DNA from: Prolixibacteraceae bacterium
GTDB taxonomy: Bacteria; Bacteroidota; Bacteroidia; Bacteroidales; Prolixibacteraceae
Length of the DNA stretch: 64,000 bases
Reading direction: 5' to 3'
Assembly (NCBI GenBank): GCA_009773765.1
Contig: WTWZ01000001.1
Span: 1 to 64,000, forward strand
Part shown: positions 896 to 25,992 of the stretch, piece after piece
Numbering within the stretch: position 1 is the first letter of the stretch
Layout: every line of letters begins with the position of its first letter
The notes under the pieces: model-generated
What the model was told of the DNA's origin: nothing
The model's input: the letters and a program-made list of their open reading frames with translations, nothing else
Database searches by the model: none
Made by a program: the position numbers and the translations under genes

Positions 896-899
896 CTTT

Positions 900-1679: not shown

Positions 1680-1777
1680 AAATTTCAAGATATTTTTTGA
1701 TTTTTTCCTTTGGATTTTGTAACACAGTTCGACTACGCTCACTGTGACTGCCGGATTAAAGCTCCTTGTTTCTTTCT

Positions 1778-1806
1778 CCTCCCCACATGGGGAGGTCGGG
1801 TGGGGC
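1778..1806. repeat. Dispersed G/C hairpin (CTCCCC...GGGGAG type)
   Basis: An 8-bp perfect stem, CCTCCCCA/TGGGGAGG around CA, is followed by tcgggtggggc. It lies between the dehydrogenase stop and the phosphatase start. A related copy is at 5218-5247. Hairpins of this make-up are common as dispersed intergenic repeats in Bacteroidota; a role in termination or mRNA stability is only inferred. Confidence 0.6.
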
Positions 1807-1811
1807 TTCTT

Positions 1812-3086: not shown

Positions 3087-3098
3087 ATTTCTATATTT

Positions 3099-3156
3099 AA
3101 CACGAAGACACAAGGATACGAAGAAAGTAAATTTGTGTCTTTGTGACTTTGTGTTT
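3099..3156. repeat. Imperfect inverted repeat of CACAAAGACACGAAG type
   Basis: Two arms of about 25 bases (aacacgaagacacaagg... and its approximate reverse complement ending ...gactttgtgttt) fill nearly all of the gap between the dehydrogenase start and the aldolase/SDR stop. A shorter one-armed copy lies at 5172-5205. Arms differ at several positions, some of which would still pair as G-U in RNA. Confidence 0.6.
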
Positions 3157-3165
3157 AAATCACTT

Positions 3166-5142
3166 TCAATTCAACATCTCCTGCCCGCCAGTTACAGGCA
3201 CTGCCTGTCCGGTTTCGTATTCCTGTTCGATGACATAGAAAATTGCCTTTGCCACATCTTCGGCTGTGCAACCGCGGCCTGCCGGAACCTGCGCTTCATA
3301 AAACGCTTTTACATCGGCAATGGTTTTGGCGCCGGGTACTTTTCCTGCTTTCAGGTACTGCACAAACAAACCGTTTTCGGGGTCGCTCCACAACGGGCCG
3401 TCGAAAAAGTTGCCCGGACAAATGCTGTTTACTTTAATATTGAATGGCATCAGTTCCAGCGCAAACGACTGAGTTAAACCAATTCCGCCAAATTTTCCGC
3501 CGGCATAAGCAAAATTTTTGTTGCTTCCTTTCAAACCCGATTTTGAATTGATTTGAATGATATCCATGTAATATCCGGGTTTGTATTTGTGCTGAATTTT
3601 CATCACTTTTTGCGCATATTTCGAGCAAAGGAAGTAGCCGGTGTAATTTATTTTTGTCATCAGTTCGAAAGTGGCTGCATCCATTTCATCGAGACTTCCG
3701 GCACGGAGGATTCCTGCATTTGAAATCATTACATCCAGTCCGCCAAACTGTAAAACTGTTTCGTTCATCAGGTTTTCAACTGATTCGGCATCGCCAACAT
3801 TCACTTTTATAAAGGAAGCCTTGTTTTTTGTACCTTTTGAATTGAGTTGTCCGGCAAATTCGTTTCCCTTGTCTTCGTTTAAATCGGCTACCACAATATT
3901 TGCCCCTTCGTTATGAAGGATTTCGGCAATCCCGGCGCCAAAACCCTGGGCAGCGCCGGTAACCACAACTATTTTATTTTCAAGCCGTCCCTTCGGTTTT
4001 CCACCTAACGACACTTTTTTGCGGTAGTTTTCAACTTCCCAGTTTTCGATAAAGTCAGCCTGTTCCTTCGTAAGGGGATGAGGCCCGCCAAAATTTTCGG
4101 AGAGTACGCCTATTTGACAAAAATCGTTGACAATATCTTTCAGATAAGCAACTGAAACCGGGGAATCTTCAGCAACAATAACTCCTTCGTCCTGAATAAA
4201 AATCACTTTCGGAACAGCTCCTTTGCGGTTTTTAAAGTCAGTTATTTTTAATCTGACCTCTTCAATTATTGCATCTTTCGAACTGCTGTTTTCGATGAAT
4301 AGGAATTCCGACATGCAATAAACCATCTGATCAGGATTAAACGGGCGGGCAATCCCTTTTTCAAATATTTCCTTATCGGTTATGAAATTTGAAATCCATG
4401 AACTGTTGAACGAAACTGCCACTTTAAGTTTTTCTCCGGAAAGGAGCATTCGGACAGCCGGCAATATTTCGACCAGTTTCCCGGATATCGGAATTTGCTT
4501 TTCCTCCGGAAAAACTGCGAATGCGTTTTGGAGTTTGGTTTTAACCTCGGAATAAATCTGATGAATTTCCTCAACCGTATCAGCCGCCACAAAAATGCCG
4601 TGATTCTGAATCAAAACAACATTTGGGTTGCGGTTGAATTTTGAATTGAACTCCTCAATTTTTTCAGCAATAATTTTGAAAAGGATGTAGCCGGGATCGG
4701 AATAGGGCACATACAAAACTTTTTCGCCAAAAATTTCCAGCGACTTTTGCTGTGCCAGGTTACTGCACATCAGTCCGTTAACCAATGTCATGTGGGTGTG
4801 TACCACAAACCGGTAGTTAAAAAGGTTGTGCAGTGATGTTTCTACCGATGGGCGCAAACCCGAAGCAGGATCAACCCGGGCGCTTAAAAGCGCATTTTTT
4901 ACCTGTTCCTCGCGAAATGTCGAATCGTCAGAAAACTGCTGATTTGGTATGTCGTTTAATTTCGCGCGGTCGAGAACGCAAAAACCACTTTCATCAATGT
5001 TGCCGAGGTTTATGCCACTTGCTTTTATCCAGAGGTGATCCTCATCTTTAAACGACGTGTTTCCGCCGCCGGCAATTACGAACTCTTTTCGCTGACCATA
5101 CCAGCGCGAAACTTCAATTAAATCTTTTATTTCCGGTTTCAT
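3166..5142 (-). CDS. Bifunctional class II aldolase / short-chain dehydrogenase
   Basis: This is a 658-residue fusion. Residues 1-230 form a class II (zinc) aldolase: catalytic Glu101 (RPSVETSLH), zinc ligands His115 and His117 (VVHTHMTLVNG) and His181 (QNHGIFVAAD). Residues 388-658 form a short-chain dehydrogenase: VTGAAQGFGAG (395-404), NAG (475-477), catalytic Ser535, and Tyr546-xxx-Lys550 (YAGGK). The architecture is that of B. subtilis YuxG/RhaEW, a rhamnulose-1-phosphate aldolase joined to a lactaldehyde dehydrogenase. No rhamnose isomerase, kinase or transporter gene lies nearby, so rhamnose as the substrate is unproven. The fusion would cleave a ketose 1-phosphate and oxidise or reduce the released aldehyde. 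The gene sits between the PHP phosphoesterase and Zn-dehydrogenase genes on the same strand. Confidence 0.87.
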   Translation of the reverse strand: MKPEIKDLIEVSRWYGQRKEFVIAGGGNTSFKDEDHLWIKASGINLGNIDESGFCVLDRAKLNDIPNQQFSDDSTFREEQVKNALLSARVDPASGLRPSVETSLHNLFNYRFVVHTHMTLVNGLMCSNLAQQKSLEIFGEKVLYVPYSDPGYILFKIIAEKIEEFNSKFNRNPNVVLIQNHGIFVAADTVEEIHQIYSEVKTKLQNAFAVFPEEKQIPISGKLVEILPAVRMLLSGEKLKVAVSFNSSWISNFITDKEIFEKGIARPFNPDQMVYCMSEFLFIENSSSKDAIIEEVRLKITDFKNRKGAVPKVIFIQDEGVIVAEDSPVSVAYLKDIVNDFCQIGVLSENFGGPHPLTKEQADFIENWEVENYRKKVSLGGKPKGRLENKIVVVTGAAQGFGAGIAEILHNEGANIVVADLNEDKGNEFAGQLNSKGTKNKASFIKVNVGDAESVENLMNETVLQFGGLDVMISNAGILRAGSLDEMDAATFELMTKINYTGYFLCSKYAQKVMKIQHKYKPGYYMDIIQINSKSGLKGSNKNFAYAGGKFGGIGLTQSFALELMPFNIKVNSICPGNFFDGPLWSDPENGLFVQYLKAGKVPGAKTIADVKAFYEAQVPAGRGCTAEDVAKAIFYVIEQEYETGQAVPVTGGQEMLN

Positions 5143-5171
5143 TGTTTTTATAAAATTTTAATTTAAAAATG

Positions 5172-5205
5172 CCACGAAGGCACAAAGACACGAAGAATCA
5201 CTAAG
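5172..5205. repeat. CACGAAGGCACAAAGACACGAAG-type dispersed repeat
   Basis: The sequence ccacgaaggcacaaagacac and its continuation cgaagaatcactaag lies in the gap upstream of the aldolase/SDR gene. It is the same family as the inverted repeat at 3099-3156. This low-complexity repeat type is widespread between genes in Bacteroidota. Confidence 0.55.
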
Positions 5206-5217
5206 TTTTTCTCCGGT

Positions 5218-5247
5218 TCTCCCCTTTTGGGGCAGTTAGAGGGGGCT
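5218..5247. repeat. CTCCCC/GGGGAG hairpin overlapping a stop codon
   Basis: The hairpin CCCC-TTTT-GGGG with flanking tct and cagttagagggggct is related to the copy at 1778-1806. It overlaps the 3' end of the PHP gene and supplies its last codons (Ser-Pro-Leu) and TAA stop, so the repeat landed inside or at the edge of the coding region. Confidence 0.6.
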
Positions 5248-6477
5248 GATAAATTTGGTTATTACTGCTTTTCCCAGTTCAATAAAATATTCCTTTTCTT
5301 CGGTTTTGGCTTTTTTGCCACTCAAATATCCTTCTTTTCCGTTGGCAATTAGATACTGATGTGCGGCAATTATTGCGGAACCTTCGTAATTTATTTGTTT
5401 CAGTTCATCATCCAAATCAACACTACCGCGACAACTGAGTTTTATCGGGTCGAGCTGTGGGGTATTATGTTCGCTCCCGAACATAATTACAAAACCATTT
5501 TGGTTGAAATACTTCACAAAGTCTTTAAAAATATTGAAATCGTTTCTTCCCGGAATTAATTCGATACTGCTTACATTCTTACTTTTCAAGGTTTCCAAAA
5601 GAACAACTTTATCGGCTTCATAATCGGTAAAATTTCCGTTCCCAAAGTCGAGAAGTACCGGATAACAAGGAATTCCGCCCGCATCGATAATAATTTCCAT
5701 CACTTCTTCCAACGAAAGGAATGCTTTTGGGTCTTCAGGCACAAATGCTGCACCACCTGCTTTTAAAAGGTTTCCACGGATTTCGTTTTCAAGTCCGGCA
5801 ACGTTATCCATTTTAGATTTTGGTTCTTTCCCCGAAAATATTTTTGTGAATAAATCTTTTCTTTCTGACTCGCTTTTTGCTTTATCAAAAACTGCAATGC
5901 GAATGGCTTGCGCAATGTGCCTTTCACGGAAAAGGTTTTTTGCCAAACGCTTTTGCACCTCAAAAGCATCGAAATTAATATCGACTGCGTTTTCAGCCAA
6001 AAAGGCATTGAGCTTTGCCACCATTTCGAAAGTTTGGTGATTGCTTTCAACCTGCAAATCCTTCACTTTTTTAAACGACGCATCACCCATTTTTGCCGGT
6101 TGGCGCAATCCTTTCCCACTGAAATAAGTGCGTCCCGGATTGCTGGGGTCGTTAACACGAATTCCTGCTGCCTGCAAATTGTTTTGCAATGCCATAAATT
6201 CGATATTAAATAGCGGGAAGATTTTGTTTTTTACTGCCAGTTCGGCAAACTCATCGTAACCGTCGGTGGTGTAAAAATCGTTGATTCCCAATACCGAAAC
6301 ACCTTCGGCTTTTGCCAGTTGAAATGCCTGTCCGATGCTTTCGAAAGCGCTGAAAGAGTGCGGGGTATGGATGTGCCCGTTAATATTGGGAATTGTTTTT
6401 CCCTGTTGATTCTCATTCCATTTCATTAGTTCCCCTGAATCGGGAAATGAAGAAAATATACTTTTGTTTGTTGCCAT
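5236..6477 (-). CDS. PHP-domain metal-dependent phosphoesterase-like protein
   Basis: This 413-residue protein has an N-terminal PHP signature, GHIHTPHSFSAF, with likely metal ligands His35, His37 and His40. Further acidic and His positions lie in NIEFMAL and GSEHNTP, as in the PHP superfamily of trinuclear-metal phosphoesterases. The start at 6477 gives MATNKSIF; an upstream in-frame ATG would read through repeat-like intergenic DNA. No polymerase domain is present. It is the first gene of the minus-strand set with aldolase/SDR, Zn-dehydrogenase and IMPase-like genes, so it may act on a sugar phosphate of the same route. The extreme C-terminus (ISPL) is encoded by a dispersed hairpin repeat. 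Family call is firm; substrate is unknown. Confidence 0.75.
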   Translation of the reverse strand: MATNKSIFSSFPDSGELMKWNENQQGKTIPNINGHIHTPHSFSAFESIGQAFQLAKAEGVSVLGINDFYTTDGYDEFAELAVKNKIFPLFNIEFMALQNNLQAAGIRVNDPSNPGRTYFSGKGLRQPAKMGDASFKKVKDLQVESNHQTFEMVAKLNAFLAENAVDINFDAFEVQKRLAKNLFRERHIAQAIRIAVFDKAKSESERKDLFTKIFSGKEPKSKMDNVAGLENEIRGNLLKAGGAAFVPEDPKAFLSLEEVMEIIIDAGGIPCYPVLLDFGNGNFTDYEADKVVLLETLKSKNVSSIELIPGRNDFNIFKDFVKYFNQNGFVIMFGSEHNTPQLDPIKLSCRGSVDLDDELKQINYEGSAIIAAHQYLIANGKEGYLSGKKAKTEEKEYFIELGKAVITKFISPL

Positions 6478-6559
6478 TTTTTTTATCCGATTATTCGGAT
6501 GCAAATTACACAAAGAGATTGAAAATGGCTGTCCTTTGGTATCCTGTTTTTTGTCGGGA

Positions 6560-6581
6560 CACGGACTTTCCAAAGTCCATG
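6560..6581 (-). repeat. Palindrome family A, copy 1
   Basis: Read on the minus strand: ATGGACTTT-GG-AAAGTCCGT followed by GTCCCGACA. All nine stem positions pair if one U-G is allowed in RNA. The consensus is shared with copies at 14266-14287 and 18081-18100. It lies upstream of the PHP gene. Confidence 0.65.
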
Positions 6582-6617
6582 AAGTTTTGTTTGATTCATC
6601 TTTTCCTAAGTAGTGAA

Positions 6618-6646
6618 GGATGGCATCTTTTCAAAAGATGCCATCC
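6618..6646. repeat. Perfect 14-bp-stem palindrome
   Basis: GGATGGCATCTTTT and AAAAGATGCCATCC flank a single C. It is the longest uninterrupted stem in the early part of the window, 37 bases from family A copy 1. It lies between the divergent PHP and DUF423 genes, so it is not a terminator for either; related to family A by its T-run/A-run centre or an independent element. Confidence 0.7.
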
Positions 6647-6721
6647 CTTTTAGATTGAAACACTGAAAACAACCTGTTCTGTTTGGTGTTTTAGTACCTG
6701 GACTTTAAAAATATCAAAATA

Positions 6722-7102
6722 ATGAGCAAATCAATTTTAATGACCTCCTCAATTCTGCTGGCAGCAGCGGTTGCAATCGGCGCTTTTGGGGCACACGGGT
6801 TAAAATCGCATTTTTCAGCAGAGATGATGCAGATTTACAAAACAGGAGTGGAATATCATTTTTATCATGCGCTCGGGTTGATGCTAATTGGAGTGGTTGC
6901 AATTTCTTTTCCTTCGAAATTGCTCAAATGGTCAGCCGTTTTTCTGGCTGCCGGAATTTTACTTTTTTCAGGCAGTTTGTATGTTTTGTCAATAACCGGA
7001 ATCAAATGGCTGGGTGCAGTTACCCCGGCCGGAGGCATCAGTTTTATTGTGGGCTGGGTGCTTTTGTTAGTAGTTGTTTTAAAAGATTTTACGGTAAAAT
7101 AA
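6722..7102 (+). CDS. DUF423 family small inner-membrane protein
   Basis: The 126-residue protein has about four predicted membrane helices. The start MSKSILMTSSILLAAAVAIG, followed by AFGAHGLKSHF, and the conserved YKTGVEYHFYHALGL segment are typical of DUF423 (YgdD-like) proteins, which have no established function. The length is normal for the family. It is a monocistronic gene between the PHP gene (opposite strand) and the M23 peptidase gene. Confidence 0.85.
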   Translation: MSKSILMTSSILLAAAVAIGAFGAHGLKSHFSAEMMQIYKTGVEYHFYHALGLMLIGVVAISFPSKLLKWSAVFLAAGILLFSGSLYVLSITGIKWLGAVTPAGGISFIVGWVLLLVVVLKDFTVK

Positions 7103-7144
7103 AAGCAGTATTTTTTTGTTAATGATTATCAAACAAGATGTTAT

Positions 7145-7165
7145 CATGATTCAAATCATGTTTTT
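7145..7165 (+). terminator. Weak candidate terminator after DUF423 gene
   Basis: CATGATT/AATCATG inverted repeat with a 2-base centre is followed directly by TTTTT. The stem is short and A+T-rich, so the call is tentative. Confidence 0.35.
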
Positions 7166-7253
7166 GACAGTCATTTTTATCTTTAAATTTCTTACTATTG
7201 CACCGTTTTTTTTGAAAAAGTTTTGTATTTTGTGAACCCGAAATATATAAGAT

Positions 7254-8072
7254 ATGATAAAAACGATAATATTTATTTCATTGTCACTTTTGTTTTTGCT
7301 GAATATGGCACAGGCCCAATACATCAATGTCGATTCATTGCATGTACTCCAGGGTAGCCCTCTGCCGGTTTCCATTGCCGAACTTGATTCAATTGAAATG
7401 ATTTCACCTGAGGTTTTACCGGAATATTTTACAGGTGGATTTATCACATCTGGCTATCTTCTTTCGCAATTTTCGTTGCCGGCAAAAGGGAAAGTCATCA
7501 GCAGGTTTGGGCCGCGTTCGGGAAGAATGCATACAGGTACTGATATTAAACTGAACAAGGGCGACACCATTTATGCTGCTTTCGACGGACAGGTTACCAT
7601 GTCGAAATACTATTACGGTTATGGAAACCTGGTGGTAATAGACCATGGGCACAACATTGAAACCTATTATTCACACCTCTCGAAATGCCTGGTTAATACA
7701 AGCAGGTTTGTGAGAATGGGCGATCCCATAGGTTTGGCCGGGGCTACAGGAAGAGCTACAACCACACATCTTCATTTCGAAGTAAGGGAAAATAACAAAC
7801 CTTACGATGCAGAACTGGTTTTCGATTTTGAAAACGGGAAAACAAGGGACGAAGTGGCTAATATGGAAAATCTTGCATCGCTTCATAATGAATTAAAACC
7901 AAAAGGTTATTCGGTAAACCAGCCCGTTTCTCAAAAATATGTGGTTCGTTCAGGCGATTCGCTGTACAAAATTGCTCGTTATACCAAAACCACCATCCAG
8001 GTGCTTTGCAGGTTAAATAACCTGACGGAAAAATCGATATTACAGATTGGGCAGGTATTGCATATTTACTAA
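7254..8072 (+). CDS. M23 (LytM) metallopeptidase with C-terminal LysM
   Basis: This 272-residue secreted protein has an N-terminal hydrophobic signal (IIFISLSLLFLLNMAQAQ), an M23 peptidase domain at about 80-185, and a C-terminal LysM repeat (YVVRSGDSLYKIARYT...LQIGQVLHIY). The zinc site is complete: HTGTD supplies His and Asp, and HLHFE supplies the active-site His pair. It should act on peptidoglycan cross-links in the periplasm, with LysM holding it to glycan. Its stop overlaps the 3' end of mfd by 4 bases in convergent orientation. Because the active-site residues are present, a true hydrolase is more likely than an EnvC-like activator. Confidence 0.88.
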   Translation: MIKTIIFISLSLLFLLNMAQAQYINVDSLHVLQGSPLPVSIAELDSIEMISPEVLPEYFTGGFITSGYLLSQFSLPAKGKVISRFGPRSGRMHTGTDIKLNKGDTIYAAFDGQVTMSKYYYGYGNLVVIDHGHNIETYYSHLSKCLVNTSRFVRMGDPIGLAGATGRATTTHLHFEVRENNKPYDAELVFDFENGKTRDEVANMENLASLHNELKPKGYSVNQPVSQKYVVRSGDSLYKIARYTKTTIQVLCRLNNLTEKSILQIGQVLHIY

Positions 8073-11000
8073 TTGTTTTTTACAAACTGGATGATTTCTT
8101 TCAGCATGTAACCGGCTGTTTCAACATTGAAAACATTCGGAAAGGCGAGTGTTAATTTATGATTTGTTTCTTTTAATTTTCCATTTCCGGTTTTTTGAAT
8201 GTACTGCACAATTTTGAGAAAATCAGCCGATTGGTAAAATTTCGATTGCTGGTCGGAAACAAAATAGCAAATCATATTTTTATTTTTGAGTATGATTTTT
8301 TCCATTCCCAGTTCGATTGCTTTCCAGCGCAAACGCACAACTTCGAGCAGTTCCACACTTTCCTGCGGCATCTTTCCGAACCTGTCGATCAGGCCGGTTT
8401 TAAACAGGTCCAGTTGATCTACGTTTTCGAGGTTGTCCAGTTCGCGGTATAGCAACATTCGTTCTGAAGTTCCGCTGATATAATCATCCGGGAAAAGCAG
8501 TTCCATGTCGGTATCAATCTGGCAGTCGTTTACATAGTTTAGTTTCAGGAAAGCCTGCGTTTGTTTCTGGCCTTCCTCGTCGAACAATCCGGCAAATTCT
8601 TCCTGTTTCAGTTCCTGAACAGCTTCGTTCAAAATGCGGTGGTATGTTTCGAACCCAATATCGGCAATAAAACCGCTTTGCTCGGCCCCCATCATATTTC
8701 CGGCGCCGCGAATGTCGAGGTCCTGCATGGAAATGCTAAAGCCGCTTCCCAAATCCGAAAACTCTTCGATGGCTTTTAAACGGCGGCGGGCATCGGCATT
8801 TACAGTTGCAAGCGGCGGCGTAATCAGATAGCAGAATGCTTTTTTATTGGAGCGTCCTACCCTTCCGCGCAACTGGTGCAAATCGCTTAACCCAAAATTT
8901 TCGGCGTGGTTTATAATAATGGTGTTGGCGTTTGGAATATCGAGCCCCGATTCGATAATTGTGGTGGCAATCAATACATCGAAGTAGCCATTGATAAAGT
9001 CGAGCATTATTTTTTCCAGTTTGTGCCCATCCATCTGTCCATGGCCCACTCCGGTTTTAACCCCCGGAACAATCCGTTTAATGGCGGCTTCCACTTCGTA
9101 TATATTTTGTACGCGGTTGTGGATAAAGAAAACCTGGCCGTTTCGATCAACTTCGTAAGTAATTGCCTCGCGTATCAACTGTTCGTTAAAGCCATGCACT
9201 TCGGTGGTTATTGGAATGCGGTTGGGTGGCGGTGTTTGAATAATAGACAAATCGCGGGCGCCCATTAGCGAAAATTGCAAAGTGCGCGGAATTGGGGTCG
9301 CAGTGAGTGTTAATGTATCCACATTTATTTTGAACTGCTTCAGCTTTTCTTTTACCGAAACGCCAAACTTCTGTTCCTCGTCAATAATCAGCAACCCCAG
9401 GTTTTTAAACTTTACATCCTGGCTCACCAACCGGTGTGTGCCGATGATGACATCGATTTTTCCATTAACAAGATCTTTTAACGTTTCTTTCGCTTCTGCC
9501 GGAGATTTTAACCTGCTTACATATTCAATCCTGACCGGGAAATTCTCCAGCCGATCAGAGAATGTTTTAAAATGCTGGAGCGCCAAAATGGTGGTCGGCA
9601 CCAGAACCGCCACCTGTTTGCTGTCGGCAACTGCTTTAAAAGCTGCCCTGATTGCTATTTCAGTTTTTCCAAAACCCACATCGCCACAAACCAGCCGGTC
9701 CATCGGAATGGGTTTTTCCATGTCCTGCTTCACGGCAATTGTGGCTTTTTCCTGATCGGGCGTGTCTTCGTAAATAAACGATGCTTCAAGTTCGGTTTGT
9801 AAATACGTGTCGGGCGAAAATGCAAATCCTTCTTCGCTCCTTCTTCGGGCGTATAATGCAATCAATTCTTTGGCAATATCCTTAACTTTTGCCTTGGTGC
9901 GGCTTTTCAGTTTTTGCCATGCGCCGCTGCCCAGTTTGTTAATGTTGGGTTCAGTTCCTTCTTTTCCCTTAAATTTCGAAATGCGGTGCAGCGAATGGAT
10001 GCTTACCAGCAGCGAATCGTTGTCCTTGTAAACCAGTCGGATTGCTTCCTGCATTTTTCCGTTTACCTCTGTTTTTACAAGACCGGCAAATTTCCCGATT
10101 CCGTGGTCGATGTGTACCACATAATCGCCCTGGTGCAGCATATTTAGTTCTTTCAACGAAAGGGCTTCGCGTTCAGCTTTTCGGGTTTTCAGCTTAAAAC
10201 GGTGGTAACGCTCAAAAATCTGGTGGTCGGTGTAGCAGCAAATTTTCAGGGCGTGGTCGATAAAACCTTCGTGCAAAACAAAGTTGACCGGGTTAAACTT
10301 TACATTTACTTTGGTATCGTTGAAAATGGATTGTAAACGTTCTATTTGTTTTTCCTGGTTCGAGAGAATAAAAATTTCGTACCCGTTTTTACTGTATTCC
10401 GAAAGATTTTCGCCAAGCAATTCAAAATTTTTGTTTAAAACGGGTTGTTTTGAATTGGAAAATTCAAGACCGGCAGTAGTTTCAAAAGCCAGATCGGTAC
10501 CCAATTCAAAAACTGTATTTTTCTGTATTTGTGATTTTAAAACCTGCCCTGAAACAATTTCTTCATGGCTTTGCCCTTCATTTGACTTAGTCAGTATCGT
10601 TTGCCGGTGAATATCGTTAACATGGTCGAAAAACTGGTTCAGGTTGTTGCCAAACCAAACGCTTTCGGTTTGGAAGAATTCGGCAAACGATACAAAGGCG
10701 CCCGCAATATTTCTGTTTTGAATATTGGGTACAATGGTTATATTGTCGAGTGAGCCTTTGGAAATCTGGTTTTCGATATTAAAACTTCGGATTGATTCAA
10801 CCTCATCGCCAAAAAAGTCGAGCCGGTAAGGATCTTCGTTCGAAAACGAAAATACATCGACAATGCTTCCACGAACCGAAAACTGGCCTGGTTCATAAAC
10901 ATACTCAACCCTTTCAAAACCATATTCATACAAAAACTCGTTGATAAAGTCGGTCGAAATTTTATCGCCTTTTTTAACCCAGAGTGTGTTGGTTTTTAAT

Positions 11001-11431
11001 CCCGGTTGTGAGATCACAGTTTCAACCAGCGCCTCCGGATAGGATACGATTATGTATGGTTTTTCGTTTAATGAAATTTTATTCAGCACTTCGGTGCGCT
11101 GAACAATATTTTCCTGTTCGGTTTGCCCGTATTGTACCGAACGTTTGTACGAAGATGGGAAAAACAGTGTGTTTTCAGTGAAGCCGAGATTATTTAAATC
11201 GTCGTAAAAATAGGCTGCTTCCTCCCTGTCGTTCAGCAGAATAGTAAAACTTTTTGTGGATTTTTGAAAAAGGTTGGCAAGTAATATGGTTTTCGAAGAG
11301 CCAATAAGTCCGCGCAGGTGAATTTTTTCACCCGGGGGGGTATTCAACATTTCAACAATTTTTTTGAAATTTTTATGCCCCTGAAAGTATTTTAGAAACT
11401 GCCCCGTTTGCAAGTTCTGAATTTTTGGCAA
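8069..11431 (-). CDS. mfd: Transcription-repair coupling factor Mfd
   Basis: The ~1120-residue DNA translocase removes stalled RNA polymerase and recruits UvrA. Visible parts in order: degenerate UvrB-like N-terminal module, CarD-like RNA-polymerase-interaction domain (LHQGDYVVHIDHGIGKFAGL, ~residue 430), RecG-like helicase motor with Walker A GDVGFGKTEIAIRAAF, DEEQ box (LLIIDEEQKFG), TATPIPRTLQ and QLRGRVGRS, and a C-terminal TRCF domain. No ATG occurs before residue 28. The given start is a TTG and overlaps a TATCTTTG promoter-like box at 11436-11429 (minus strand), so the real start may be the TTG at 11413 (residue 7). The 3' end overlaps the M23 gene by 4 bases. Confidence 0.95.
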   Translation of the reverse strand: MPKIQNLQTGQFLKYFQGHKNFKKIVEMLNTPPGEKIHLRGLIGSSKTILLANLFQKSTKSFTILLNDREEAAYFYDDLNNLGFTENTLFFPSSYKRSVQYGQTEQENIVQRTEVLNKISLNEKPYIIVSYPEALVETVISQPGLKTNTLWVKKGDKISTDFINEFLYEYGFERVEYVYEPGQFSVRGSIVDVFSFSNEDPYRLDFFGDEVESIRSFNIENQISKGSLDNITIVPNIQNRNIAGAFVSFAEFFQTESVWFGNNLNQFFDHVNDIHRQTILTKSNEGQSHEEIVSGQVLKSQIQKNTVFELGTDLAFETTAGLEFSNSKQPVLNKNFELLGENLSEYSKNGYEIFILSNQEKQIERLQSIFNDTKVNVKFNPVNFVLHEGFIDHALKICCYTDHQIFERYHRFKLKTRKAEREALSLKELNMLHQGDYVVHIDHGIGKFAGLVKTEVNGKMQEAIRLVYKDNDSLLVSIHSLHRISKFKGKEGTEPNINKLGSGAWQKLKSRTKAKVKDIAKELIALYARRRSEEGFAFSPDTYLQTELEASFIYEDTPDQEKATIAVKQDMEKPIPMDRLVCGDVGFGKTEIAIRAAFKAVADSKQVAVLVPTTILALQHFKTFSDRLENFPVRIEYVSRLKSPAEAKETLKDLVNGKIDVIIGTHRLVSQDVKFKNLGLLIIDEEQKFGVSVKEKLKQFKINVDTLTLTATPIPRTLQFSLMGARDLSIIQTPPPNRIPITTEVHGFNEQLIREAITYEVDRNGQVFFIHNRVQNIYEVEAAIKRIVPGVKTGVGHGQMDGHKLEKIMLDFINGYFDVLIATTIIESGLDIPNANTIIINHAENFGLSDLHQLRGRVGRSNKKAFCYLITPPLATVNADARRRLKAIEEFSDLGSGFSISMQDLDIRGAGNMMGAEQSGFIADIGFETYHRILNEAVQELKQEEFAGLFDEEGQKQTQAFLKLNYVNDCQIDTDMELLFPDDYISGTSERMLLYRELDNLENVDQLDLFKTGLIDRFGKMPQESVELLEVVRLRWKAIELGMEKIILKNKNMICYFVSDQQSKFYQSADFLKIVQYIQKTGNGKLKETNHKLTLAFPNVFNVETAGYMLKEIIQFVKNN

Positions 11432-11473
11432 AGATATGGGTTTTTGCGGTTTTTAAATTCTGATAAACGGAAT

Positions 11474-11496
11474 AAAAAAGGGGCAAAATCTGCCCC
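11474..11496 (-). terminator. Rho-independent terminator
   Basis: On the minus strand GGGGCA-GATTT-TGCCCC is followed by TTTTTT. It lies just after the stop of the small secreted protein gene and ends the peroxiredoxin/small protein operon before mfd. Confidence 0.85.
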
Positions 11497-11526
11497 TGAA
11501 ATATTGTATTGAGTTAAGTTTTAAAA

Positions 11527-11910
11527 TTACTTTTTGTTTCCATTCATCTGATAAACCATCTTTAAGTTACCTGATTTTGTAAGAACTGCGAAATCATCAA
11601 CCAAAATCTCATCCTCTCCGTCATTATTAAAATCTCCTTTTGCAGTAACTCTGAAGAATGCAAACGGATTGGCCAATTCCATAATCGGATTATCGGGTTC
11701 AACCTTAAATGTAACAATTCTTGTCAGATTCCCGGAGGGTGTTATTTTGATAATTTCAACTCCGGTTAAAAAATATTCTGCCCCACCTGAGACTTTAAGT
11801 GTTAATTCGAAGTTTTCAGTTATTTTTTTCTCAGCCTGGGCTACTACAGTATTCGAACTTAAAACACTGCTTACAAAAACCAAAAGAAAAACTGTTCTAA
11901 ATGTTTTCAT
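11527..11910 (-). CDS. Small secreted protein with Ca-loop-like motif
   Basis: This is a 127-residue protein of unknown role. The start at 11910 gives a signal peptide (MKTFRTVFLLVFVSSVLSS, followed by NTVVAQA); the 16 upstream codons look non-coding. Near the C-terminus DFNNDGEDEILVDDF resembles an FG-GAP/VCBS or EF-hand-like DxNxDG loop, so calcium binding is possible. It follows the peroxiredoxin gene by 44 bases on the same strand and shares its terminator, suggesting cotranscription. No catalytic family recognised. Confidence 0.65.
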   Translation of the reverse strand: MKTFRTVFLLVFVSSVLSSNTVVAQAEKKITENFELTLKVSGGAEYFLTGVEIIKITPSGNLTRIVTFKVEPDNPIMELANPFAFFRVTAKGDFNNDGEDEILVDDFAVLTKSGNLKMVYQMNGNKK

Positions 11911-11954
11911 TTTTAAAAATTTTAGTTTTGGGCTTGTAAACCAATGTAAAAGTA

Positions 11955-12524
11955 TCAAATCTTTTTAATGAAACTTAACACCTCTTCGGTATCTTTTTCA
12001 ACATTCACCTGTTCATTTTTGTATGCAATTTTCCCGTTTTTATCGATTATAAAGGTCCAGCGGCTTGCAGAAACACCCCGAACAAGGTCATAACTATGCC
12101 CGTCAACCTCTTTTGTTATTTTACCGCCATCGCGTAACGGAACTCCAAATGATTTGGCAATTTCGCCCGATTCGTCAGATAACAGTGTAAAATTTAGGTT
12201 TTCAGCTTTCTTGAAGAGTTTTAATCCTTCAACATTATCGCCGCTAACACCAACCACAATTGCATCGGCTGATGATATTTCGGTTTGTAAATCGCGATAG
12301 GCACAGGCTTGTTTTGTGCAACCGCCAGTCATTGCTGCCGGATAAAAGTAAACCACAATGTATTTTTTGCCGATGTAATTATTTACATCCCAGGTTTTTC
12401 CGTTGTCGGCCAAGGTTTTAAACAGTGGGGCTTTATCGCCAACATTCATTACATTCTGATTTTGGGCAAACGATAAAACCGATATTGCCATTAACAGTAC
12501 TGAAGAAAAAATTAGTCGTTTCAT
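11955..12524 (-). CDS. Exported BCP/PrxQ-type peroxiredoxin
   Basis: This 189-residue thiol peroxidase has an N-terminal signal peptide (LIFSSVLLMAISVLSFAQ) that predicts export to the periplasm, unusual for the mostly cytosolic BCP group. The active site is YPAAMTGGCTKQAC: the PxxxTxxC signature with peroxidatic Cys69 and a Cys five residues later (Cys74), as in PrxQ proteins that form an intramolecular disulphide. The AhpC/TSA fold continues through GVSGDN and RWTFIIDKNGKI. It probably reduces peroxides using a periplasmic thioredoxin-like partner. First gene of a two-gene unit, divergent from the amidase gene. Confidence 0.87.
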   Translation of the reverse strand: MKRLIFSSVLLMAISVLSFAQNQNVMNVGDKAPLFKTLADNGKTWDVNNYIGKKYIVVYFYPAAMTGGCTKQACAYRDLQTEISSADAIVVGVSGDNVEGLKLFKKAENLNFTLLSDESGEIAKSFGVPLRDGGKITKEVDGHSYDLVRGVSASRWTFIIDKNGKIAYKNEQVNVEKDTEEVLSFIKKI

Positions 12525-12607
12525 TTTTTATATTTTAGTTTTTACTGTTAAACAAGATTTTTAGAGAAATGTTTCTTTATCTTCATGGCAAATCAAAAAA
12601 AAATAAA

Positions 12608-14212
12608 ATGAAACGCCGTACATTCTTCAAAACCACCGCATTAAGCGGTTCTGTGGTTGCACTTACAGGGATTTCTGCCTGCGCGCAACAATCGCAAACT
12701 TTGCCTGCAAAACCCGATTTCGCCGATTTCGATCTGAACGAAATAACCATTGATGAGTTACAGCAAAAAATGGGTTCAGGAGAATTAACCTCCGAATCCA
12801 TTTGTCAAAAATATCTTGACCGCATTGCACTGGTTGACCCGGTTTTAAGATCGGTAATTGAAATTAATCCCGATACACTGGAAATTGCAAAAAAGCTCGA
12901 TGAAGAAAGAAAAGCCGGAAAGGTTCGCGGACCCATGCACGGTATTCCTGTTTTAATTAAGGATAACATCGACACATTCGATAAAATGCAAACCACTGCT
13001 GGATCGCTGGCGCTGGCAGGGAACATTGCTGAAATTGATGCTTTTATAGTAAAAAGACTGCGCGACGCCGGAGCTGTTTTACTTGGGAAAACCAACCTGA
13101 GCGAGTGGGCTAATTTTCGTTCAACCACTTCGTCAAGCGGTTGGAGTGGCCGGGGCGGACAGGTGCGAAATCCGTTTTGCCTCGACAGAAACCCCTGTGG
13201 CTCAAGTTCAGGCACGGGTGCTGCTGTGGCTGCCAATCTTTGTGCCATTGGAATTGGCACCGAAACAAACGGTTCCATTGTCTGTCCTTCGGGAATTAAC
13301 GGCATTGTTGGTATTAAACCCACGCTTGGAATGTGGAGCCGGCGGGGAATTATTCCAATAGCACACAGCCAGGATACGGCAGGCCCCATGGCGCGTACCG
13401 TGAAAGATGCTGCCATTTTACTGGGCGCGCTTGCCGCTTTCGACCCCACCGACGCCGAAACTCACATTGAAAGGAAAGATCATTTCAGCGATTACACGCA
13501 GTTTTTGGATGAAAACGGATTGAAAGGAATGCGAATCGGGATTGCCTCTGAAATGATTGGTTTTAATGCCAAAGTGGATGAGATTTTTAAGCAAGCTGTT
13601 GAAATTATGAAAGCCAGTGGCGCTGAAATTATTGAAGATTTGAAATTTGAAAACTACCGGAAATGGGGAGATTCTTCATACGAAGTTTTGTTATACGAAT
13701 TCAAAGCCGGTTTAAATAAATATTTACAGGAACACGCTGCCGCACCTGTGAAAAGTTTAGGTGAAATTATTGAATTCAACAAAAAAAATGCTGCCCGTGA
13801 AATGCCCTGGTTTGCCCAGGAGATTTTTGAACAGGCGCAATCCAAAGGCGATTTATCATCTCCTGAATATTTAAAAGCGTTGGCAGATTCGAAACGGTTT
13901 GCCGGTAAGGAAGGAATTGATGCTGTTATGGAAAAACACAATCTGGATGCTGTAATAGCTCAAACCAACGGGCCGGCATGGACTATTGATTGGGTAAATG
14001 GCGACCATTTCAGTGGAGGAAGTTCATCGCCGGCAGCTATTTCGGGCTACCCGAATATTACAGTGCCCATGGGAACTGTTCATGGTTTGCCTGTTGGAAT
14101 CTCGTTTTTTGGCCGTGCCTGGAGCGAACCTAAGTTACTCAAAATAGCATACGCTTTTGAACAGGCAACAAAACACCGCAAAGCACCGGGATTTTTGGAA
14201 ACACTTGCCTGA
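12608..14212 (+). CDS. Amidase-signature family lipoprotein
   Basis: The 534-residue amidase has the Ser-cisSer-Lys triad: Lys118 (IPVLIKDNID), the cis-Ser in CGSSSGTGAA (~199-200), and nucleophile Ser223 (ETNGSIVCPSG). The start at 12608 gives MKRRTFFKTTALSG, a twin-arginine (Tat) motif, then GISAC with a lipobox Cys25. It should therefore be folded in the cytoplasm, exported by Tat and tethered by lipid. Substrate is not predictable; peptide amides or small carboxamides are usual for exported members. It is divergent from the peroxiredoxin gene with an 83-base shared upstream region. Confidence 0.86.
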   Translation: MKRRTFFKTTALSGSVVALTGISACAQQSQTLPAKPDFADFDLNEITIDELQQKMGSGELTSESICQKYLDRIALVDPVLRSVIEINPDTLEIAKKLDEERKAGKVRGPMHGIPVLIKDNIDTFDKMQTTAGSLALAGNIAEIDAFIVKRLRDAGAVLLGKTNLSEWANFRSTTSSSGWSGRGGQVRNPFCLDRNPCGSSSGTGAAVAANLCAIGIGTETNGSIVCPSGINGIVGIKPTLGMWSRRGIIPIAHSQDTAGPMARTVKDAAILLGALAAFDPTDAETHIERKDHFSDYTQFLDENGLKGMRIGIASEMIGFNAKVDEIFKQAVEIMKASGAEIIEDLKFENYRKWGDSSYEVLLYEFKAGLNKYLQEHAAAPVKSLGEIIEFNKKNAAREMPWFAQEIFEQAQSKGDLSSPEYLKALADSKRFAGKEGIDAVMEKHNLDAVIAQTNGPAWTIDWVNGDHFSGGSSSPAAISGYPNITVPMGTVHGLPVGISFFGRAWSEPKLLKIAYAFEQATKHRKAPGFLETLA

Positions 14213-17268: not shown

Positions 17269-17610
17269 TTATTTAGACTGAATTAGCGGCTTAATTTGTT
17301 CGTTAAGTTTTGAAATGTCATTTTCAACAATTTGCCAAATAAGATCGACATTAATCCCAAAATAATGATGAGCTATTATATTCCTTAATCCATAGATTTT
17401 CTCCCAGTTTATTTGGTCATGCCGCTGTTTGAATTCATCTGATAATTTACCCACTTCTTCACCCAACACAATAAAGTTCATCATTGTTGCATCGAAATCC
17501 CGGTCGTTTTCATAAAAATCCTCAGCATTTAAATAATCAGAACTGTACTTTATTATTTTCTTTAAAGTTTCCTGAATTGAAAGTAGCAAATAGTAATCTT
17601 TGTTAAGCAT
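17269..17610 (-). CDS. hepT: HepT-like (DUF86) RNase toxin
   Basis: 113 residues, mostly helical, with the HEPN active motif R-x4-H-x-Y: Arg76, His81, Tyr83 in RNIIAHHYFG. In characterised systems HepT is an RNase that is silenced when the MntA partner attaches AMP to the motif's Tyr. The start at 17610 overlaps the end of the mntA-like gene by 8 bases, the usual translational coupling of these pairs with the antitoxin first. A+T-rich, as expected of a mobile toxin-antitoxin cassette placed between the receptor and TPR genes. Confidence 0.88.
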   Translation of the reverse strand: MLNKDYYLLLSIQETLKKIIKYSSDYLNAEDFYENDRDFDATMMNFIVLGEEVGKLSDEFKQRHDQINWEKIYGLRNIIAHHYFGINVDLIWQIVENDISKLNEQIKPLIQSK

Positions 17611-17902
17611 ATATCGCTTCTTTAAGAATCAGTGGCTTGAAAATAGGTTTAATCCATTTTTTGGAACAAATATCGATTTCCCTGTTAAAATGGTTTTTTA
17701 AATATTCCTTTAATTCAAATTCAAGACTAAACAAATCCGGGGCATCTTTCTCGAATTGCACTAAAATATCAATGTCACTATTCTCTGTTTGTTCATTGCG
17801 GGCAAAAGAACCAAACAATCCAATTTCGGTACAATGAAATTTTTTCAGTAAAAAAGATTTATTTTCTTTTAAAAATATTAATATTTCTCCTGTTGAAAGC
17901 AT
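17603..17902 (-). CDS. mntA: MntA-like nucleotidyltransferase antitoxin
   Basis: 99 residues. The minimal nucleotidyltransferase signature GS-x10-D-x-D is intact: Gly31-Ser32 then Asp43 and Asp45 (GSFARNEQTENSDIDILV), with a third acidic residue in REIDICS. In HepT/MntA systems it transfers AMP to the HepT toxin. Transcribed ahead of the toxin gene and overlapping it by 8 bases. Upstream sequence shows no clear operator. Confidence 0.88.
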   Translation of the reverse strand: MLSTGEILIFLKENKSFLLKKFHCTEIGLFGSFARNEQTENSDIDILVQFEKDAPDLFSLEFELKEYLKNHFNREIDICSKKWIKPIFKPLILKEAIYA

Positions 17903-22534: not shown

Positions 22535-22552
22535 GCATGCTTATGGGTTATG
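22523..22552. other. 30-base perfect palindrome at a convergent gene junction
   Basis: Arms CATAACCCATAAGCA and TGCTTATGGGTTATG meet without a spacer. It covers the stop of the CPBP gene and the last codon and stop of the convergent gene ending at 22548. A direct ATAACCC repeat sits just before it. It lacks T-runs, but could end or insulate transcription in both directions. Confidence 0.65.
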
Positions 22553-23282
22553 CAAAATCAAAAAGCAAATCGCGCTGAAGTTCTTTATCTGTTAACTTTC
22601 TCTTTTCTTTTCTGCGGAAGATATACACAATACCGTAATCCTGGGCAATCTGACGTTTATGTTTTGGATTGTCGGTATTAATTCCTTCTTCAATTTCTGT
22701 CCACAACTGACTGATAAAATCGTTGGTTGATTTACGCAGTCCCTGCATTATATTGTAGGTACGGGTTGTATTCTTTTTCAGGTTTTGCTGAAAAACTGCT
22801 GCATCTTTAAACTCTTCAACTTTAATCCGGACTAATGCAATTGAAGGATTGTAAATAGCGCTACCTCCTTTTTGAATGCGTTTTTGCTCGCCTTCAACAA
22901 CTTTGCTTCCCCAATACAGAATCTCTTCTTCAGTGTTTAACGGTGGGACTTTCCCTTCAAATTCCTCTAATCCATAGAATTTAATTCCACCATTTATTTC
23001 GCCCCGTTCTGAAGTGAGATACAAAACCTGGATAAAATGCGAAACATACATCCGGGCCCTTTCCATAGCAGTTTTATATTCATGATACTTTTCAGACTGA
23101 ACCTGAATGTTCATTTCGTAATGCTTAAGCGTATTCTCGAATTTACTTTTAACGGTTTGCAACTCTTCTATTGCTCTTTCCGAAATTGCAACTTTCCCGT
23201 TTTTAAAGGCAACTTTTTCGAGTGCAGCTTCGAGCGCCCTTGTTCGGGCTTTATCTGTTGTTGGTAAACGACGGTACGGCAT
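22548..23282 (-). CDS. Conserved protein of unknown function, helical
   Basis: 244 residues, no signal peptide or membrane helix. The N-terminal half is rich in long charged helices (EELQTVKSKFENTLKHYEM...), probably coiled coil. The middle is a mixed region (LNTEEEILYWGSKVVEGEQ), and the C-terminal part is basic (YIFRRKEKRKLTDKELQRD). I do not recognise a family. The gene is isolated: convergent with the CPBP gene and divergent from the ATPase gene. Confidence 0.6.
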   Translation of the reverse strand: MPYRRLPTTDKARTRALEAALEKVAFKNGKVAISERAIEELQTVKSKFENTLKHYEMNIQVQSEKYHEYKTAMERARMYVSHFIQVLYLTSERGEINGGIKFYGLEEFEGKVPPLNTEEEILYWGSKVVEGEQKRIQKGGSAIYNPSIALVRIKVEEFKDAAVFQQNLKKNTTRTYNIMQGLRKSTNDFISQLWTEIEEGINTDNPKHKRQIAQDYGIVYIFRRKEKRKLTDKELQRDLLFDFA

Positions 23283-23382
23283 AATTTTAAAACTGTTTCG
23301 TGCGAAGTTATGAATTCCGAAAGATGATTTTATTTATTCGCCGATGAACTTATTCACAATCTGTTGTCAATTATTTTTATGT

Positions 23383-23478
23383 AAAAAAGCCTCCCTAGTA
23401 ATGAGAAGGCTTTTTCTGCAAATATTCTGAATCAAAACTTTATTCGCCAAACCTTGCAACCAGGAACTCTATGGTTCA
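23383..23478. repeat. Remnant copy of sdhB 3' end and its terminator
   Basis: This 96-base segment matches 24775-24867 at roughly four positions in five by eye. It includes the hairpin AAAAAGCCT/AGGCTTTTT and, on the minus strand, codons equivalent to the sdhB terminus (LVARFGE and stop, against LVARFSE). There is no coding sequence before it, so it is a detached tail. With the real sdhB end it brackets the ATPase gene. The rest of the gene-free stretch 23283-23585 shows nothing else I can support. Confidence 0.75.
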
Positions 23479-23585
23479 ATTTTGAAATGTTTATTTAAAA
23501 ATGCTTTTACAAAAAAGCAAAAAACAGTAAATTTGCTTTTTTAAAATATCATTATTGATAAATATTGCTTAACTTGCAAAGCATT

Positions 23586-24776
23586 ATGGAAAGATTAATA
23601 GAAAAACATCATCAAATTATCAGAGATACTCCCGACAATTTTATTAGAAGTTTTATTGGTTCAATTCATTGGGCGGAACGATTGATTGGAATTAAGGGTG
23701 CAAAAGGCGTTGGAAAAACCACACTTCTTTTGCAACATATCAAAAATAACCTACATAACGAAAAAGCGATTTATTTAACACTTGACGATCCCTTTTTTTA
23801 TGGAAATAAAGTATCTGATACGGTAGAGGCATTCATAAAAAAGGGATTTACCCATTTTTTTCTTGACGAAGTTCATAAATATGCGGGTTGGTCGGGAGAG
23901 ATAAAAAACTTGCATGACACTTACCGAAAAATAAATATTGTTTTTACCGGTTCGTCTGTATTGCACCTTATTGAAGGAGCTGCAGATCTAAGTCGTCGTG
24001 CAATGGTTTATGATTTGCCCGGTTTGTCATTTCGTGAGTATCTTGAATTTACTACTGGAAATTCATTCCCCTCGTTTTCCTTAGAAGAAATTTTAACGGG
24101 ACATGAACAAATTGCTCAGGAAATAACAAAGAAAATTCATCCTTATGAATTCTTTAGCGATTATCTGCAAAAAGGTTATTATCCTTTTTTTATAGAAACA
24201 CCAAAAACTTATAATTTTCGTGTTGAAGCTGCCATCAATCAATCGTTGGAAAGTGATTTGCCACTTATAAAAAATATTACACCGGATATTGTAATTAAAC
24301 TAAAACAAATTCTGGGAGTAATTGCGCAGTCTGCTCCTTTTAAACCCAATATTCAAAAAATAAGCGAAAGGGTTGGCGTGTCGAGAAATTCCCTGGTAAT
24401 TTATATTCGATATCTTGAAGAAGCTAAAATAATTAAACAGTTATATACGGATGTTTTAGGAATAGGCTCTTTACAAAAGCCTCAAAAAATTTATTTTGAA
24501 AATCCCAATTTAATTTATTCGCTATCTTCACTTTCTTCTCAAATTGGAACAGTTCGCGAAACTTTTGTTTTAAACCAACTTGTAAAATCCAATGTTGTTA
24601 CCTATCCGAAAAGAGGAGATTTTTATGTGAACGAAAAATTTACTTTCGAAGTGGGTGGACAAAACAAATCGAAGGAGCAGATTTCAGGGATAGAAAATTC
24701 TTTTATTATATCAGATAACCTTGAAATTGGATTTGGAGAAAAAATCCCAATATGGTTAATGGGTTTTTTATATTAA
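23586..24776 (+). CDS. AAA+ ATPase with DUF4143-type C-terminus
   Basis: 396 residues. N-terminal AAA_14 module: Walker A GAKGVGKTT (38-46), Walker B FFLDEVHKY (Asp94-Glu95), sensor TGSSVLHL. The C-terminal part (ISERVGVSRNSLVIYIRYLE, then YFENPNLIYSL) is the winged-helix plus nuclease-like region of the DUF4143 group. These ATPases are common, often multicopy and poorly understood. I chose the ATG at 23586 over an upstream alternative. Gene is A+T-rich and flanked on both sides by copies of the sdhB terminus; its own stop overlaps the second copy, so it looks like an inserted cassette. Confidence 0.82.
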   Translation: MERLIEKHHQIIRDTPDNFIRSFIGSIHWAERLIGIKGAKGVGKTTLLLQHIKNNLHNEKAIYLTLDDPFFYGNKVSDTVEAFIKKGFTHFFLDEVHKYAGWSGEIKNLHDTYRKINIVFTGSSVLHLIEGAADLSRRAMVYDLPGLSFREYLEFTTGNSFPSFSLEEILTGHEQIAQEITKKIHPYEFFSDYLQKGYYPFFIETPKTYNFRVEAAINQSLESDLPLIKNITPDIVIKLKQILGVIAQSAPFKPNIQKISERVGVSRNSLVIYIRYLEEAKIIKQLYTDVLGIGSLQKPQKIYFENPNLIYSLSSLSSQIGTVRETFVLNQLVKSNVVTYPKRGDFYVNEKFTFEVGGQNKSKEQISGIENSFIISDNLEIGFGEKIPIWLMGFLY

Positions 24777-24806
24777 AAAGCCTCCCCAATAATGAGAAGG
24801 CTTTTT
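24775..24806. terminator. Bidirectional terminator between ATPase and sdhB
   Basis: AAAAAGCCT/AGGCTTTTT stem with a 14-base loop gives a T-run on either strand, ending the convergent ATPase and sdhCAB transcripts. The same hairpin occurs at 23384-23415. Confidence 0.85.
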
Positions 24807-24828
24807 GAAAATATTCTGTTTCAAAATT

Positions 24829-25590
24829 TTATTCGCTAAACCTGGCAACCAGATATTCCCGGTTCATGCGGGCTATATTCAGAATTGAAATGCTTTTTGG
24901 GCATTCAGCTTCGCAGGCGCCGGTGTTGGTGCATCCTCCAAAGCCAAGTTCATCCATTTTTGCAACCATGTTACGGGCGCGTTTTTTAGCTTCAACCCTG
25001 CCTTGCGGCAGTTTGGCCAAATGCGAAACTTTTGCCGAAACAAACAACATTGCCGACGAGTTTTTACATGCTGCAACACAAGCGCCACAGCCAATACAAG
25101 CTGCCGCATCCATGGATTCCTCAGCATCTTCATAAGCAATTGAAATCGCATTACCGTCAGGCACACCTCCTGTGTTTACCGAAATAAAACCACCTGCCTG
25201 CAGAATTTTTTCAAATGCCGAACGATCGACAATCAAATCTTTAATTACCGGGAAAGCCCTTGCACGCCAAGGTTCAACGGTAATGGTTTCGCCCTCGTTA
25301 AACTTGCGCATGTGCAACTGGCAAGTCGTAACTTCCGTGTCTGGCCCATGCGGACGGCCATTGATAAATAAACTGCAGGTTCCGCAAATCCCTTCGCGAC
25401 AATCGTGATCGAATGCAATCGGATCAACACCTTTTTCAATTAGTTCATTGTTCAGGATATCCATCATTTCGAGGAAAGATGAACCTTGCGAAATATTTTC
25501 GATGGTGTAGGTTTCAAATTTTCCCTTTTCTGAAGCCCTGTTTTGTCTCCAGACTTTTATATTTAGTTTTTTCAGAATCTTATCAGCCAT
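24829..25590 (-). CDS. sdhB: Succinate dehydrogenase/fumarate reductase iron-sulfur subunit
   Basis: 253 residues, complex II electron-transfer subunit on the cytoplasmic face of the inner membrane. The plant-ferredoxin-type 2Fe-2S ligands are in [16 protein letters not shown] and the distal VTTC. The C-terminal ferredoxin module has [13 protein letters not shown] and [15 protein letters not shown] for the 4Fe-4S and 3Fe-4S centres. Last gene of the sdhC-sdhA-sdhB unit. It is separated from sdhA by 457 bases that carry an inserted four-helix-bundle gene. Its last codons and terminator are duplicated at 23383-23478. Confidence 0.95.
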
Positions 25591-25629: not shown

Positions 25630-25992
25630 TTAGCTTTGAGATTTTATAAGTGATTGTTTAAGTCCAAAGATCATTTTTTGGATTTCATTCAATTTAGCAT
25701 CAAAAAACTCAAATTCTTCCTTAGAATAAAAATCCAAATCAAAAGAAAGTATTACCAAAGTTTCCAATTCAAATGCACTTCCATTTGCAATATCCAAAAA
25801 ACGATTTAATTCATTATCGCTATTTCTTCCGCAACCTTCCGCAATATTTGTTGGAATTGACACTGCACTTCTTCTCATTTGAGAAGTAATACCAAAAAGT
25901 TCTTCTTTTGGGAATTTGTGAGTTGACTTATATATTTCTTTTACCAGCTCTCTCCCTTTTTGCCAAACTTTCAATTCTTTAAACTGATGCAT
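25630..25992 (-). CDS. Four-helix-bundle protein (23S rRNA IVS-type family)
   Basis: 120 residues, all helical, with the family's hallmarks: FKELKVWQKGRELVKEIYKS, RRSAVSIPTNIAEGCGR and FLDIANGSAFELET. The family (TIGR02436) was first seen in intervening sequences of 23S rRNA and is scattered between genes in Bacteroidota; its role is unknown. Here it sits inside the sdh operon in the same orientation. Both flanks carry low-complexity repeats (tctaaatatctaaaatct on the sdhB side; tactctgtacttgatactc on the sdhA side), which are typical of its insertions. Confidence 0.87.
   Translation of the reverse strand: MHQFKELKVWQKGRELVKEIYKSTHKFPKEELFGITSQMRRSAVSIPTNIAEGCGRNSDNELNRFLDIANGSAFELETLVILSFDLDFYSKEEFEFFDAKLNEIQKMIFGLKQSLIKSQS

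Follow-up and report, generated by a model that had tools for sequence, protein, structure and literature searches.

PDC-S01, in PADLOC an AAA ATPase fused to a PD-(D/E)XK domain, is a candidate phage defence that consists of a single gene. According to the accessible passages of one survey, it is the fourth most common defence across prokaryotes, and validation is still pending for most PDCs (PMC12988326). A similar domain make-up, by description alone, is found in arCOG03166, an AAA+ ATPase that also has an HTH and a RecB nuclease domain; within archaeal dark-matter islands, the available part of that work classes it as a likely defence gene or a plasmid gene of some kind (PMC4158269). The literature on PDC-S01 deals with distribution and domain make-up; in its accessible passages, neither movement nor insertion footprints nor repeats upstream of the gene are mentioned. 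To our knowledge, there is so far no explanation of how single-gene systems of this kind, which bring no transposase or integrase with them, are able to spread.

The elements called CIME and IME carry their cargo between two direct repeats by which a gene end is rebuilt, and no integrase lies inside; each recombinase has one attachment site. Insertion sequences and transposons differ from what is described below, where neither a signal for terminal inverted repeats nor a short target duplication of fixed length is seen; the duplications vary from about 50 to 250 bases. Duplication of a gene fragment beside foreign DNA is also the mark of single-crossover and homology-facilitated illegitimate recombination (PMC3240628, PMC5361080), proposed for the orphan immunity gene arrays at T6SS loci of V. 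cholerae.

The window, i.e., the whole stretch of 64,000 nucleotides of a Prolixibacteraceae bacterium that was analysed here, shares with the CIME the flanking repeats. The iron-sulfur subunit of succinate dehydrogenase/fumarate reductase, sdhB, is encoded on the minus strand at 24829..25590 (NF005746, E 8e-126) and is the host gene. Its true end, with the last codons, 3' UTR and terminator, is the proximal copy at 24765..24852 (minus strand). A distal copy, to which no gene is attached, lies on the same strand at 23374..23463. By repeat scan and alignment the two are direct repeats of 87% identity over 90 aligned columns, and in the sequence each has its terminator hairpin, at 24775..24806 and 23384..23415, respectively. 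A global alignment suggests that the distal copy may extend to about 23507, with fainter similarity to some 35-45 bases farther upstream in sdhB. The original prediction had put the copies at 23383-23478 and 24775-24867, the real gene end being the latter; the positions fit, and so does the assignment. In 184 kb of contig C15, this pair (E = 5e-22) was the only one to pass the filters of the scan (length 40-500 bases, spacing 200-5000, score at least 58 bits, no dispersed repeats). Chance as the origin of flanking repeats was rejected in view of this E value and of a re-pairing of left and right flanks from different ATPases, which gave a repeat in 1 of 1049 pairs.

Between the copies, on the strand opposite to sdhB, family profiles place the AAA_14/DUF4143 ATPase (23586..24776, plus strand, 396 aa), a PDC-S01 of PADLOC. 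Its stop falls at the start of the proximal copy. The overlap that had been claimed is real for the T/A-rich lead-in of this copy, not for the terminator proper, which begins at 24775. Between the distal copy and the start of the ATPase there is an imperfect inverted repeat (23497..23556, arms 23497-23521 and 23532-23556), operator- or iteron-like in appearance. The putative mobile unit would comprise the upstream region and the ATPase, 23464..24776 on the plus strand. Beyond the distal copy follows the next host gene (22548..23282, minus strand), the marker of the order before insertion, whose protein (22551-23282) has no family match in Pfam and NCBIfam. Of the four proteins between 22.5 and 26 kb that were scanned with the same two collections, none matches a recombinase family.

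Two further features of the window may be mentioned. A gene for a four-helix bundle of the 23S IVP family (25630-25992) separates sdhA from sdhB; inspection by eye finds it in some relatives but not in others. At 17269-17902, two short adjacent genes resemble what we take to be a HEPN/nucleotidyltransferase pair.

That the ATPase had arrived by insertion behind sdhB, and that relatives without it would show an empty site, is supported by comparison within the genus. The genus sample comprised 37 genomes including the window's own, many of them drafts and one per species, so that the empty site is one seen between species; 35 had an sdhB match, five relatives with a match were left out, and 30 loci were compared. 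In none of the 29 relatives is PDC-S01 found within about 1.5 kb downstream of sdhB. The window's next gene stands close behind sdhB in 25 of them, and 27 have no second sdhB end. Relative to its relatives, the window carries an insertion, and the end of the host gene is duplicated around it. The 3' UTR common to both window copies has by eye no match in the UTRs of the relatives, including the sister species G022 and G008, and the duplication therefore arose in the window's own lineage. In G022, a similarity of 27 bases to the sdhB end is taken as chance. In this species, sdhB and the downstream gene are probably separated by a further gene (two contigs), which indicates that the spot behind sdhB accepts inserts.

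One relative, G029, has a second sdhB 3' end 58 bases past the stop without any ATPase (L024/L412). In the letter, this is the case of both copies without ATPase that had been named as speaking against the original prediction; in substance it is a different matter. The sdhB tree groups the window's species with G022 and G008 (support 100/98) and puts G029 far off, the G029 copies are only 73% identical, and by eye they share no UTR. A single ancestral event behind both duplications was rejected on these grounds, and we take that of G029 to be a separate event, perhaps an import. Its downstream gene is 83% identical to the window's at the amino acid level, those of G022 and G008 82%, while the G029 sdhB is not as near; that the copy came in together with this downstream gene was considered.

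The ATPase is assigned to its family by PF13173 (AAA_14, E 1e-27 in Pfam) and by six PADLOC models of PDC-S01, the best being PDLC04787 (E 7.6e-28); the six ATPases tested were all named PDC-S01 by such models. The DUF4143 match is weak, 26.8 bits against a cut-off of 28.1 in the protein scan, i.e., just under, and 29 bits in the genome scan, just over. The Walker A motif GAKGVGKT is present. The window type differs from PDC-S01 as commonly described in its atypical nuclease motif: in the C-terminal PD-(D/E)XK-like motif the usual ExK lysine is replaced (FEVGG), and it is also missing in ATPases of the L107-L110 type. A PDB search with the protein returned six chains, in each of which the match covers about 70 residues of the AAA core. 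When a 53-residue piece was searched order-wide, 3 of 149 genomes matched, and no use was made of this result. Some plasmid records contain homologues of PDC-S01 (206 of 72,556 with one type, 26 with the window type); none of four such loci has flanking repeats, two of these records being identical over 8,175 bases.

The same footprint is seen beside other genes, whose names malY, wecB, wzx, LytTR, T9SS and amidohydrolase come from reading translations and are putative. The original prediction had proposed a look at the flanks of other DUF4143 ATPases in the window's genome. The outcome is positive, in that 4 of the 28 loci there are framed by direct repeats, all of which read as gene ends: the window itself and the ends of a LytTR regulator (101 bases), of a malY/patB-like aminotransferase (64) and of an amidohydrolase-like gene (65). 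The nearest homologue of the window ATPase (77% aa) sits in G011 between pieces of the valS end, and a third, intact valS end lies beyond two further ORFs; no ATPase is found in the 400 bases behind the valS of the window's genome. Two ATPases of G020 are framed by copies, the first of the 5' end of wecB and the second of a T9SS-type gene end; with 136 bases at 99% and 83 bases at 94% identity, respectively, they belong to the young cases, as does one of 229 bases at 96%. Together with sdhB, the 3' ends of valS, malY, LytTR, amidohydrolase and T9SS-type genes and the 5' end of wecB make seven target genes, named by reading, and the length of the duplication varies between about 50 and 250 bases. 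At wzx in G020, pieces from either end of the host gene stand behind the ATPase, from which we conclude that this duplication is nearer 1.5 kb.

The malY end is used in G016 too, by a PDC-S01 of another subfamily. Among 30 malY loci, both of those with PDC-S01 downstream carry a second malY end; the remaining 28 yield one 20-base match and one 41-base duplication, the latter in G001. There (L385), the 41 bases of the malY end stand on both sides of an insert of about 560 bases without an evident gene.

More than one cargo can be found at a target. The wecB array (L147, contig C79 of G020, 9209-13658 of the reverse complement) has three partial wecB starts followed by the intact wecB; its cargoes are a PDC-S01 ATPase, a further gene that reads as PIN-like, and a PIN-type toxin module (PF01850 match), and one copy reaches farther into wecB than its partner. 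Since three cargoes share one 5' end with unequal copies, recombination between separately inserted units is needed there. Flanking repeats were seen at 2 of 20 PIN toxin loci, one of them being this array; the footprint, therefore, is not exclusive to PDC-S01. In a scan of 864 kb, 18 repeat pairs passed, of which seven were judged neither tandem paralogues nor repeats within genes; four of these seven have PDC-S01 as cargo. Two other arrangements were noted. At L193 (G000 C99, 11630-12335), the two 3' ends of a 692-residue ORF that flank a short gene measure 86 bases and are 77% identical; we presume this gene to be HigA-like, i.e., a toxin-antitoxin-like cargo with the same footprint. At L078 (G002, 3359-9351), repeats of about 150 bases are spaced between genes, one of which is a PDC-S01 ATPase, and the whole looks like an integron-type cassette array.

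For counting, a direct repeat had to measure at least 50 bases, reach E<=1e-6 and lie, on either side, no more than 500 bases from the ORF; ORFs with less than 350 bases of flank or with repeated C-termini were left out, and control ORFs had at least 200 residues. In the genus sample, flanking repeats occur at 17 of 136 PDC-S01-like genes and at 5 of 802 other ORFs (p 3e-11), a difference of about 20 times. In the sample of named genomes, which covers other taxa (80 loci, with Prolixibacteraceae and Draconibacterium among the relatives included), the counts are 8 of 75 and 0 of 149 (p 1e-4). The Fisher tests behind these p values take genes as independent, and the genomes are related. Under the loosest rule (at least 40 bases, E<=1e-4), the genus counts are 18/136 versus 5/802 and those of the named genomes 8/75 versus 2/149 (p 0.003), the latter contrast being weaker. 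Runs with other, looser settings agree: 19/122 versus 3/234, 3/19 versus 0/38, and 11/79 versus 7/164, where control matches reach at most 50 bases. The footprint thus recurs at about one in eight relatives of the window ATPase, a significant minority, beside quite different and unrelated host genes. This rate is not a census, because ATPase-rich species and retrieved loci are over-represented in the genus sample.

Of course, not every match is a convincing one. Among the 25 counted, some have the look of low-complexity sequence or of repeats that belong to promoters or adjacent genes (L271, L283, L322 and G020_C36 46406). By reading, L271, L283, L322, L128, L132, L360 and one repeat of G020_C36 were set aside as low-complexity, promoter, tRNA-like or adjacent-gene repeats, and they remain in the counts wherever they passed the threshold; their removal would lower the rate and keep the contrast. 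A separate ORF, G000 C33 77462-78052, was likewise set aside, and likewise remains in the counts wherever it passed; its protein resembles what we presume to be a REP-associated transposase, and its flanks contain a palindrome.

As to the limits of the unit, related ATPases in different contexts (80-88% identical nucleotides; L047, L050, L081, L048 and L087) can be aligned over the ORF and no more than about 120 bases ahead of its start and 20 past its stop, and L133 and L134 from about 97 before the start to 17 after the stop. By eye, L047 and L050, which are two of the five units in the first comparison, as well as L133 and L134 look like cassettes in integron-type arrays, and the limits may therefore partly be cassette limits. 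In four insertions (window, L007, L125 and L151), the second copy starts within the last codons of the ATPase. Terminal inverted repeats gave no signal: for 124 PDC-S01 genes, the 150 bases upstream matched the 100 around the stop with a mean of 14.4 bits, as compared with 14.2 for shuffled partners. Within these 150 upstream bases, perfect inverted repeats with arms of at least 10 were detected in 32 of the 124 genes and in 14 of 330 other ORFs; for direct repeats of at least 13, the figures are 41 of 124 and 9 of 330. These upstream repeats resemble operators or iterons; they may be operators or belong to the mobile unit.

That these ATPases were inserted with duplication of the target appears nearly certain. 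Our overall reading, that a compact nomadic unit lands next to genes and duplicates a long target stretch of variable length, is held with somewhat better than even confidence. The unit would consist of the ATPase gene and roughly 50-150 bases of upstream DNA. In the window's lineage, it would have landed just downstream of sdhB and duplicated the last part of this gene with its terminator, which would leave sdhB intact and the distal copy free to decay. The unit may enter a break with two nicks some 50-250 bases apart; fill-in of the single strands would then yield the two copies. A landing would persist only where the host gene is not broken by it, hence the copies would show 3' and, rarely, 5' ends of genes. 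Widely separated nicks, fill-in and selection are the simplest account of a variable length, the lack of a fixed target and a host gene that is mostly whole, and for the widely staggered break itself the chances are about balanced. Several points count against this explanation. Some 87-89% of PDC-S01 genes are without repeat, be it that they are old or that many arrive otherwise. There is neither a signal for terminal inverted repeats nor a fixed duplication length, the wzx case implies a longer duplication, the wecB array needs recombination, PIN loci have repeats as well, and the ExK lysine is missing. In view of this lysine and of the PIN loci, the ATPase may be carried along as a passenger that selection retains, e.g., for phage defence.

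The main rival is single-crossover (Campbell) integration, in which a circle or plasmid that carries the ATPase and a short piece of a host gene end recombines with the resident gene. We regard it as a serious if distinctly less probable explanation. In E. coli, the duplicated part of the target gene measured 109-950 bases in 14 sequenced clones, as given in the accessible part of that study, and this range overlaps with ours (PMC3240628). The arrays with several cargoes at wecB and valS are also easiest to build by recombination between gene fragments, and homologues of PDC-S01 do occur on plasmid records. However, the crossover needs a donor that already has the ATPase at the same gene; no donor with the same neighbour was seen, and the nearest homologue adjoins valS. 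At 53-72 bases, some of the duplications are short for homologous recombination, and the edges of the unit lie close to one gene in many places.

A nomadic unit might, alternatively, move itself: PDC-S01 would then be the mobile element, its ATPase recognising the inverted or iterated repeats upstream of its own gene and inserting the unit via widely spaced nicks with target duplications of 50-250 bases. This idea is rather doubtful, the more so as the absence of the ExK lysine in ATPases of the window type and the L107-L110 type weakens the case for self-driven movement.

Still less probable is a non-autonomous, CIME-like element at gene ends, served by a site-specific recombinase in trans. 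The reconstitution of the gene end, the valS and wecB arrays, which resemble tandem accretion, and the use of the malY end in two species would fit. Integration at the 3' end of one gene, as the original prediction had it, is nevertheless not what the collected loci show: seven targets by reading with both 3' and 5' ends, repeats that are long and variable, a cargo of one gene, no recombinase family among the four proteins scanned around the window's ATPase, no conserved attachment gene and no terminal-inverted-repeat signal. Least probable is a tandem duplication of the host gene end with later decay and an unrelated ATPase, which the larger duplication at wzx and the second sdhB end of G029 might recall and which the original prediction had kept as its alternative, since the repeats track the ATPase, both in the genus-wide contrast and at malY.

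The footprint around DUF4143/COG1373 ATPases or PDC-S01 was found nowhere described in the open-licence literature, as far as its listings and accessible passages allow to judge. It points to a gene insertion with target duplication in variant form, and to a so far undescribed route by which single genes could pass from one bacterial genome to another. PDC-S01 is, in the accessible part of the survey, among the most numerous defence candidates known (PMC12988326). If it did move itself, one of the commonest defence candidates of prokaryotes would be its own vehicle. A landing scar lets arrivals be dated, oriented and counted, it allows empty sites to be found, and it permits to ask whether the protein moves itself. 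Fragments of gene ends near defence and toxin genes can, accordingly, be landing scars instead of ordinary pseudogenes.
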